A DNA stretch of 9,389 nt from Candidatus Zixiibacteriota bacterium (lineage in GTDB: Bacteria > SM23-81). This document shows positions 6,586 to 9,389 of the stretch, one piece after another. Below the pieces are notes generated by a model. The model was given only the letters and a program-made list of their open reading frames with translations. It was not told where the DNA came from and made no database searches. Position 1 is the stretch's first letter, and each line of letters starts with the position of its first letter. Location: positions 1 through 9,389 of the forward strand of contig DAOVRJ010000083.1 in assembly GCA_030628225.1 (NCBI GenBank), read 5' to 3'. The position numbers were made by a program, and so were the translations under genes.

Positions 6586-7980
6586 ATGAAACTAAGTCTT
6601 CAACTTAAACTGCAACAGGTCCTGGCTCCTCAGCTGATTCAATCCCTTCAGCTGTTGCAGGTTCCTATTCTACAGCTGGAGCAGATCCTGAAACAGGAGC
6701 TGCAGATCAACCCCCTCCTGGAGGAGGTGGAGGAGATAGAGGAAGAGGAAGAGGAAGAGCAGCTGGAAGAGAAGGAAGATGAGGAGGAACAGGAGCCGGA
6801 GGAGGATAAGATTGACTGGGACGATTATCTTCAGGATGGTTACGACGGTGGCTATAACGTGCGGGCCGAGAGGGATTCAGAGGAATTTCCCGAAAGGGTT
6901 CCCGTTTCCCGGATGACCTTCTCCGAGCATCTCCTCTCCCAGCTTCATCTCACCAGCCTCTCTGAGCGGGAGTATCAGATCGGGGAATTCATCATCGGCA
7001 ACATCGATGACCGCGGTTACCTGACCATACCCCTGGAGGAGGTCGCCCGTATCCTGGACGTTCCCACGGAGGAATGCCAGCGGGTGCTAGAGGTCATTCA
7101 GACCTTCGAACCTGTGGGTGTCGGGGCGCGGAATCTGGCAGAATCTCTTCTGATTCAGCTCCGGGAACGGGGCATCGATAACCCGGTGGCCAAAGCCATC
7201 ATCGAGAATCATCTTGACGAGGTCGAAAAGAAAAGCTTTGCTCAGCTGGCCAAGGTCTTGAAGGTAAGCACTAGTCAGGTTCAGGAGGCCATGGAGCGGA
7301 TAAGCACTCTTTCCCCCAATCCTGGCTTCGGGTATGTGACCGTGGATGCCGAGGTCATCGTTCCCGATCTGCTCGTGGAGAAGGTGGACGACTGTTACGT
7401 GGTCATGCTAAACGACAGGAGCATTCCCCGACTCCGCATCAGCCCTCTGTACAAGACCCTGTTGTCCAAATCTGCAGGGACCCCCGAGGAGACCAGAGAT
7501 TACGTCAAGGAGAAGCTCAATGCCGCTCGCTGGCTGATCAAGTCCATTGATCAGCGTCGTTCCACCATGCTCAAGGTGATGAACTACCTGGTTTATGCCC
7601 AGAGAGGTTTCTTCGAAAAGGGAATATCCGAGCTCAAGCCCATGACCCTTCAGGAGGTGGCCGAAGCCACCGGACTGCACATCTCCACTATCAGCCGGGT
7701 GGTGAACAACAAATATGTGCAGAGTCCCCAGGGCATCCACGAGCTCAAGTACTTCTTCGGATCGAAGGTGGAATCCATCGGCGGCGAGGAAATTTCCTCC
7801 AAGAGCGTCAAGGATAAGATCACCAACATGATCGAGAAAGAAGATCCCCAAAGACCCCTCAGTGACCAGAAAATTACCAATATGCTCAAAGCCGAGGGTC
7901 TGCAGGTGGCCAGGCGTACCGTGGCCAAGTATCGAGAGCAGTTGAAAATTCTGCCGGCTAGATTTCGCAAGCGAGTATAG
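6586..7980 (+). CDS. rpoN: RNA polymerase sigma-54 factor
   Basis: Directs RNA polymerase to -24/-12 promoters that need AAA+ activators. The product is 464 aa, typical. Region I (about residues 1-47) is the Gln/Leu-rich activator-responsive segment: LQLKLQQVLAPQLIQSLQLL, ending in LQINPLLEE. Region II (about 46-80) is very acidic, almost all Glu and Asp. A core-binding domain spans about 105-300. The helix-turn-helix begins near residue 353 (TLQEVAEATGLHISTISRVV), and the RpoN box ARRTVAKYRE is at residues 442-451, near the C-terminus. All expected regions are present, so the factor should be functional. It starts six bases after lptB with almost no Shine-Dalgarno, which suggests coupled translation. 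The stop is three bases before the lipA ATG. Confidence 0.98.
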   Translation: MKLSLQLKLQQVLAPQLIQSLQLLQVPILQLEQILKQELQINPLLEEVEEIEEEEEEEQLEEKEDEEEQEPEEDKIDWDDYLQDGYDGGYNVRAERDSEEFPERVPVSRMTFSEHLLSQLHLTSLSEREYQIGEFIIGNIDDRGYLTIPLEEVARILDVPTEECQRVLEVIQTFEPVGVGARNLAESLLIQLRERGIDNPVAKAIIENHLDEVEKKSFAQLAKVLKVSTSQVQEAMERISTLSPNPGFGYVTVDAEVIVPDLLVEKVDDCYVVMLNDRSIPRLRISPLYKTLLSKSAGTPEETRDYVKEKLNAARWLIKSIDQRRSTMLKVMNYLVYAQRGFFEKGISELKPMTLQEVAEATGLHISTISRVVNNKYVQSPQGIHELKYFFGSKVESIGGEEISSKSVKDKITNMIEKEDPQRPLSDQKITNMLKAEGLQVARRTVAKYREQLKILPARFRKRV

Positions 7981-7983
7981 AGG

Positions 7984-9165
7984 ATGGCCTCAGGCCAGAT
8001 TAAACAGATCTGTCAACGGTTGCCCGGATGGTTGTCTAAGCCGATTCTGGCCAATGCCGGCACACGGAGGGTCGCCGCTCTCCTGCGTCGACTGGAGTTG
8101 AATACCGTTTGCCAGAGCGCCCATTGTCCCAACAAGGGAGAGTGCTTCTCCCGGGGCACGGCCGCCTTCATGATTTTAGGGGATGTGTGTACCCGGGGCT
8201 GTTCCTTCTGTGCCGTGACCAAGGGGCAGCCGACTCCTGTTGACAGTGATGAGCCCCGGCGAGTGGCTCAGGGCGCCGAGGAGCTTGGACTGCGGTACGT
8301 GGTGATCACCTCGGTGACCAGAGATGATCTGCCCGATGGGGGCGCCGGTCAGTTTGCCAGGGTTGTCCATGCTCTGCGTCGTCTTCTCCGAGGTCCTCGG
8401 GTGGAGGTGCTCACACCTGATTTTCGGGGAGATTTCGCCGCCCTGGCCACTGTGGTTGAGGCCGCACCGGACGTGTTCAACCACAATGTGGAGACAGTGC
8501 CCCGTCTCTATGGCTTCCTTCGACCGCAGGCCGATTATCACCGGTCATTAGGAGTTCTGGAGAGGGTCAGGGCAATGGATTCGGCTATGGTGACCAAATC
8601 GGGCATCATGGTGGGCCTGGGAGAGCACCGTCACGAAATCCTTACGGTCATGCAAGATCTTCGCCAGGCCGGCTGCCAGGTCTTGACTATAGGCCAATAT
8701 CTATGTCCATCCCGCCAGCATTATCCCGTCCAGGAATTCGTCACCCCCCAGGTTTTTGAGGAATACCGTCTCATGGCCCAGGATCAGGGTTTTCTTCACG
8801 TTTGCTCGGCTCCGTTCGTTAGAAGCTCCTTCCACGCCGAGGATCTTTTTGACACCTTCTCCCAGAGGAGGAAAAGAGATGAGGATAAACATCACTGCCA
8901 GACATTTCGAGATAACCAAAGAATTGGAAGATCACGTTCAGAGTCGATTGTGGACCCTGAAAAAAAATTTCGAGAGCATCATCCACACCCACGTCATCCT
9001 CTCCGTGGAGAAATATCGACACACCGCCGAGATCACGATGAAGGTCTCCGGGCTCACCCTGGTCAGCAGGGAGGAATCCGAGAGCATGTACACGGCCATC
9101 GATCGCGCGGTGGCCAAGCTGGAACGCCAGGTCAAGCGATACAAGCAGAAACTTCAAAATCATAA
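7984..9165 (+). CDS. lipA: Lipoyl synthase with an anomalous C-terminal extension
   Basis: A radical-SAM enzyme that inserts two sulfurs into protein-bound octanoyl groups to make lipoyl cofactor for 2-oxoacid dehydrogenases and glycine cleavage. The auxiliary 4Fe-4S motif CX4CX5C is Cys43, Cys48 and Cys54; the radical-SAM CX3CX2C motif is Cys69, Cys73 and Cys76. The conserved C-terminal RSS motif, whose Ser is an auxiliary-cluster ligand, is at 280-282 (FVRSSFHAED). Normal LipA ends about here, but the frame stays open to residue 393. The last ~104 residues are Arg/His-rich and lie over hpf in another frame, so they are unlikely to be a real domain. With one extra T in the T5 run at 8846-8850, the protein would end at UGA after 289 aa. 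ATG 7984 is the first start after the rpoN stop; AGG immediately before it is too close to be a normal ribosome binding site. LipA beside rpoN is an unusual placement. Confidence 0.9.
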   Translation: MASGQIKQICQRLPGWLSKPILANAGTRRVAALLRRLELNTVCQSAHCPNKGECFSRGTAAFMILGDVCTRGCSFCAVTKGQPTPVDSDEPRRVAQGAEELGLRYVVITSVTRDDLPDGGAGQFARVVHALRRLLRGPRVEVLTPDFRGDFAALATVVEAAPDVFNHNVETVPRLYGFLRPQADYHRSLGVLERVRAMDSAMVTKSGIMVGLGEHRHEILTVMQDLRQAGCQVLTIGQYLCPSRQHYPVQEFVTPQVFEEYRLMAQDQGFLHVCSAPFVRSSFHAEDLFDTFSQRRKRDEDKHHCQTFRDNQRIGRSRSESIVDPEKKFREHHPHPRHPLRGEISTHRRDHDEGLRAHPGQQGGIREHVHGHRSRGGQAGTPGQAIQAETSKS

Positions 9166-9259
9166 GTCCAAAAAGAGGGAATTGGAGGAGGAAAGGGTGA
9201 AGACGTCTGAGGAATCCTTTGAGTTGTCCGAGGAGGAAGAGGGGGTATGGCAGGACTGA
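8879..9259 (+). CDS. hpf: Ribosome hibernation-promoting factor (HPF/RaiA family)
   Basis: Binds the 30S subunit in the decoding region and silences ribosomes in slow growth. The product is 126 aa. Residues 1-100 are the beta-alpha fold: INITARHFEITKELEDHVQ, a strand SVEKYRHTAEITMKV, then SMYTAIDRAVAKLERQVKRY and a basic QKLQNHKSKK. The tail (about 104-126) is acidic (SFELSEEEEG). It is longer than E. coli HPF (about 95 aa) but lacks the C-terminal dimerisation domain of long HPF (about 180-190 aa). ATG 8879 is chosen because AGGAGG lies seven bases upstream (8866-8871) and the conserved MRINITARH begins there; the open frame back to 8756 is a shadow of lipA. It sits after rpoN, its usual neighbour, with lipA inserted between. 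The hprK ATG overlaps its end by 13 nt. Confidence 0.93.
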   Translation: MRINITARHFEITKELEDHVQSRLWTLKKNFESIIHTHVILSVEKYRHTAEITMKVSGLTLVSREESESMYTAIDRAVAKLERQVKRYKQKLQNHKSKKRELEEERVKTSEESFELSEEEEGVWQD

Positions 9260-9389
9260 CGGTCGAGGAGCTTTTTCAGGAGAAAAAGAACTATCTGGAG
9301 CTGATGATCGCAGGCGACAGGTCGGGTCTTAAGAAAAGCATCTCCGAGAACGGCATCGACCGGCCGGGCCTGGCCCTGGCGGGATTCAC
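9247..9389 (+). CDS. hprK: 5' end of HPr kinase/phosphorylase (truncated by window edge)
   Basis: HprK phosphorylates and dephosphorylates HPr on its regulatory Ser according to energy and carbon state. Only 47 full codons are visible, covering the start of the N-terminal domain. MAGLTVEELF, LELMIAGDRSGLKKSISE and IDRPGLALAGF match the HprK opening, notably the N/D-RPGL-LAGF motif. The Walker A and catalytic motifs lie beyond the window. ATG 9247 lies inside hpf (13-nt overlap), preceded by the purine-rich GAGGAGGAAGAGGGGG, which can act as a ribosome binding site. In many bacteria outside the enterobacteria hprK follows rpoN-hpf, where ptsN is found in E. coli, and this supports the call. 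The main alternative would be another protein with the same N-terminal domain. Confidence 0.82.
   Translation, partial: MAGLTVEELFQEKKNYLELMIAGDRSGLKKSISENGIDRPGLALAGF

Follow-up and report, generated by a model that had tools for sequence, protein, structure and literature searches.

A bacterial lipA gene very probably forms an unusually long same-strand phase-1 overlap with its neighbour hpf

Where does a lipA gene end when its reading frame runs 287 nt into the next gene? And does such a junction reflect a sequencing mistake, ribosomal or transcriptional slippage, or a real overlap of two genes? The stretch of DNA in which this question arises (hereafter the window) is a whole contig of 9389 bases from a draft genome of 2.34 Mb in 306 contigs (92% complete) with a single lipA match. 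Based on the comparisons described below, lipA and hpf are very probably a genuine same-strand phase-1 overlapping pair that is unusually long in the window and carries a passive distal tail on the LipA side.

Results and discussion

All features considered here lie on the forward strand of the window. The lipA open frame (7984–9165 in the list of open reading frames) runs from the ATG at 7984 to the TAA at 9163–9165 and, as written, encodes a lipoyl synthase of 393 aa. Its product belongs to the LipA family, with a TIGR00510 score of 365 bits (cut-off 310) and a match of residues 14–296 to NCBIfam PRK05481. The protein also contains the N-terminal cysteine motif (CQSAHCPNKGEC), the radical SAM CxxxCxxC motif (CTRGCSFC) and the C-terminal RSSY/F motif (RSSF). 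Its upstream neighbour, rpoN (sigma-54; 6586–7980, TIGR02395), is located 3 nt before lipA. On the downstream side, hpf (8879–9259) encodes a ribosome hibernation-promoting factor of 126 aa in a frame other than that of lipA, with an ATG at 8879 and a TGA at 9257–9259. It is a member of the HPF/YfiA family according to TIGR00741 (88.4 bits, cut-off 40.9) and is also matched by Pfam PF02482. The initial annotation had assigned hpf to 8879–9165; start, frame and the 287 nt shared with lipA stand, but the gene extends to 9259, and 9165 is the stop of lipA. The start of hprK (9247–9389) follows and runs off the end of the window; the gene was named by inspection and is similar to the one downstream of hpf in G001, a genome of the same family but another genus and the sole close relative compared. 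Together, rpoN, lipA, hpf and hprK form a tight gene cluster.

LipA had been expected to end at HAEDLF, at residue 289, and the frame is indeed open for a further 104 residues after F289. However, a missing normal stop at this point is not supported, since the family models continue to about residue 296 and the tails of the comparison genes are longer. The NCBIfam LipA models align through residues 295–296 in the window and through residue 298 in G001, and 5 to 39 residues follow the RSSYHA motif across 71 comparison lipA genes (one of which runs off its contig). A stop at residue 289 would leave 4 residues after the motif, below all 71. The LipA family region thus spans residues 1 to about 296, and residues 290 to about 296 fall within the ordinary length of the protein. 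No match to NCBIfam or Pfam was found for the 104-residue tail.

We compared the junction with that of G001, which has the same order of rpoN, lipA, hpf and hprK and shares 71% (LipA) and 69% (HPF) identity with the window. Both junctions align without gaps (window GAGGATCTTTTTGACACCTTCTCCCAGAGGAGGAAAAGAGATG, G001 GAGGATCTTTTTCAGACCCTCTCCCAAAGGAGAAAAGGAGATG). As in the window, there is no stop in G001 lipA before hpf; its LipA ends with EDLFQTLSQRRKGDEDRHHREAFRTH, 41 nt inside hpf and in the same phase, at a TAA over hpf codons 13–14. The window reads CAA at the corresponding positions 8917–8919. The two genomes differ here at the third position of hpf codon 13, with ACC in the window and ACT in G001, both encoding Thr13, so the lipA frame switches between CAA and TAA through a change that is synonymous in hpf. 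The difference at 8917, where the window base comes from a single assembled genome, probably sets the two lengths apart, without polarity, as two sequences are compared. Only six changes separate window and G001 in the ten codons ahead of hpf; they fall 3/0/3 on lipA codon positions 1/2/3, a coding-frame-like pattern. Over the following eight codons, inside hpf, the substitutions fall 4/1/0, as hpf dictates.

The comparison divides the LipA tail into two parts. The proximal part (residues 290–312; 8851–8919) aligns gap-free to the G001 tail up to the G001 TAA at 8917–8919, while the frame of the 81 distal residues (8920–9162) is open in the window alone. Over the whole tail stretch, G001 translated in this frame was 51% identical and contained four TAA codons; the likeness is therefore what conservation of hpf alone would give. 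Because the distal part lacks a family match and its frame is closed by TAA in G001, it looks like a passive by-product of the overlap. We conclude that LipA of the window/G001 family has its C-terminus in the roughly 22 proximal residues. The previous view of the tail as an accidental translation fits the distal 81 residues, which have no family match and meet four TAA codons in G001, but not the proximal residues shared with G001. A conserved in-frame tail in relatives had been named as the sign of a genuine extension; it is seen for the first ~22 tail residues and not for the last 81.

The initial annotation had centred on the run of five T at 8846–8850, proposing a homopolymer sequencing error, a stop-loss frameshift or slippage-based termination. 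The run is read in frame as CTT TTT GAC, as described, and the window/G001 comparison revealed that it is kept as T5 in G001. If one T had been dropped here during sequencing or assembly, the true LipA would comprise 289 aa; an extra T directly yields CTT TTT TGA, and the source is a single draft genome in 306 contigs. However, G001 independently carries an identical T5, and its lipA frame is likewise open into hpf, so a dropped T would need to have occurred identically in two genomes. In addition, a 289-aa LipA conflicts with the family models and with the at least 5 residues found after the motif in the 71 comparison genes. We consider such an error highly improbable, and the G001 sequence argues equally against a frameshift at the run. 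A stop difference is involved, but it is found at 8917–8919 inside hpf and not at the T-run.

It is extremely improbable that a -1 ribosomal or transcriptional slip on the T-run ends LipA early and spares hpf from lipA ribosomes. TTT could re-pair on TTT in the -1 frame and, as had been pointed out, this leads immediately to a UGA at 8850–8852 in the window; the -1 frame of G001 would end too, at the ATGA of hpf, its first stop. Yet the UGA reached by the slip is absent in G001, so the two genomes would yield different slip products, and the zero frame shows its coding-like substitution pattern up to hpf. The site also lacks the hallmarks of programmed -1 frameshifting or slippage: it has no in-frame X XXY YYZ heptamer, the run consists of only 5 T and no unusual RNA fold was detected there (z -0.72).

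With the T-run set aside in favour of a real overlap, the length of the open frame has to be accounted for. The 95 open codons over hpf were mildly unusual under synonymous-codon nulls, with P about 0.008 when codons were drawn according to window codon usage and P about 0.03 when codons were shuffled within hpf. In 90 distinct hpf genes, the median distance from start to first stop in the phase-1 frame was 20 codons. The frame stayed open for at least 60 codons in 15 of these 90 genes (window included), frequently as far as the compared region extends, so the length observed in the window is not exceptional among real hpf genes. In G105, a genome of another phylum (its class and phylum are represented by one genome each in the comparison set), the lipA stop is a TGA over hpf Phe10-Asp11, which requires TTT as the Phe codon. 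The window and G001 lack this stop because Phe10 is TTC in both. Past the region of Phe10 and codon 13, the lipA frame of hpf is poor in stops; without an early stop, a long extension is thus unremarkable.

Thirteen different genomes (window included) contain lipA directly before hpf, and in eight of them the genes overlap, by 1, 4, 4, 4, 10, 32, 41 and 287 nt. Gaps of 89, 29, 27, 25 and 15 nt were found in the others (the 27-nt value, from L182, is approximate because the position taken as the hpf start is not tied to a start codon). The 32-nt overlap belongs to G105, which has the full rpoN-lipA-hpf-hprK order and the same phase as the window. Its LipA tail, GDHEDQHNREAL up to the stop, resembles that of G001, GDEDRHHREAFRTH, a likeness that is partly forced by the conserved N-terminus of hpf. 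All three overlaps (287 nt in the window, 41 nt in G001 and 32 nt in G105) are 2 mod 3. The pair thus consists of two real same-strand genes in a unidirectional phase-1 overlap that is present in G001 and G105 as well, but neither genome shares its full length of 287 nt.

The comparison set comprised 4 genomes from the phylum of the source organism. Among them, lipA is located between rpoN and hpf in the window/G001 family and not in the sister family (sister-family loci L113, L116 and L117). In G002, of the same phylum, rpoN is directly followed by hpf and hprK, and lipA of G002 and G003 is found elsewhere, after thiC-like and panD-like genes (named by inspecting translations). From the different lipA sites of the two families it follows that the gene moved in one of two lineages. 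The arrangement of lipA directly upstream of hpf recurs in distant genomes, often between rpoN and hpf (loci L006, L007, L019, L062, L128, L140, L141, L164, L172, L177 and L182). The exact junction pattern was absent from the viral contigs searched, and a plasmid search gave only distant lipA matches.

How might both genes be expressed from such a junction? Since lipA lacks a stop ahead of the hpf start, its ribosomes would end inside hpf at the first stop in their frame, and hpf would be initiated on its own Shine-Dalgarno site within lipA. A candidate site, the AGGAGG at 8866–8871 (sequence CAGAGGAGGAAAAGAGATG), lies within the lipA frame, with 7 nt separating it from the hpf ATG; the counterpart in G001 is CAAAGGAGAAAAGGAGATG. 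A scan for promoters and terminators at the lipA-hpf junction gave nothing above chance. In G001, lipA translation would end at the TAA over hpf codons 13–14; with CAA in its place in the window, it would continue to the next stop at 9163–9165 and add a passive tail of about 80 residues. We infer full-length synthesis of the 393-aa protein, tolerance by LipA of a tail that would have no function, and initiation of hpf on its own site.

The tail might instead be a functional extension or serve expression control, with putative tuning of hpf by lipA ribosomes that cross its start. The hpf start is inside lipA by at least 32 nt in three genomes, which is consistent with such a role. But the distal tail is neither matched by a family nor conserved in G001, and the junction length varies widely at the same gene order, gaps included; we therefore regard this possibility as very unlikely. 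It also seems very unlikely that the 287-nt overlap is translated in both frames with wrong-frame lipA ribosomes dampening hpf, in which case a synonymous hpf change would alter both the LipA C-terminus and hpf output. If dual translation were true, the junction would count as a real co-directional overlap that far exceeds the 60-nt limit of a previous survey (PMC2478687).

In that survey, Palleja et al. (2008) judged every co-directional overlap of more than 60 nt to be an error and took holD-rimI of Enterobacteria, with 32 to 56 nt, as the longest real overlap (PMC2478687). The lipA-hpf junction resembles holD-rimI as a conserved co-directional overlap of genus-specific length, and both G105 (32 nt) and G001 (41 nt) fall within that range. 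It differs in the 287 nt of the window, the long part of which is not conserved. Measured against the 60-nt ceiling, 287 nt would be exceptional if maintained (PMC2478687). Fonseca et al. (2013) inferred selection against overlaps longer than 60 nt, and state that phase 1 allows short overlaps only through the rare start ATT (PMC3887535). As in their phase-1 class, the window contains two genes on the same strand, the 3' end of the upstream gene is extended into the downstream gene, and chance stops in the latter determine how long the overlap is, although 287 nt greatly exceeds what is usual (PMC3887535). The window lipA would also be flagged as a member of a published error class, in which a frameshift or stop-codon mutation extends the upstream gene. 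Only the last 246 nt fit this class, because G001 shares the overlap itself, and the cause in the window is a stop difference inside hpf rather than a frameshift at the T-run. No paper on a lipA-hpf junction was found in the collection of literature searched. The window is best regarded as an unusually long case of a common bacterial overlap type, and neither a sequencing mistake nor a new mechanism.

This case calls for caution in annotation, where a long upstream gene that enters its neighbour is often dismissed as a frameshift error. In the present case, a related genome reveals a real overlap in which only the length varies, through a substitution silent in the downstream gene. On a small scale, the locus neatly illustrates how phase-1 overlaps can become long.

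Two minor observations concern neighbouring sequences. A second, partial lipA lies at a contig end in G001 (L118, G001:C34:4-456; L125) beside a lipB gene, and represents a second gene copy or else contamination, which amounts to 5% in G001; lipB was not found in G000, G002 or G003. The hpf and hprK genes overlap as well, by 13 nt in the window (9247–9259) and by 7 nt in G001 (L112, 3489–3495).
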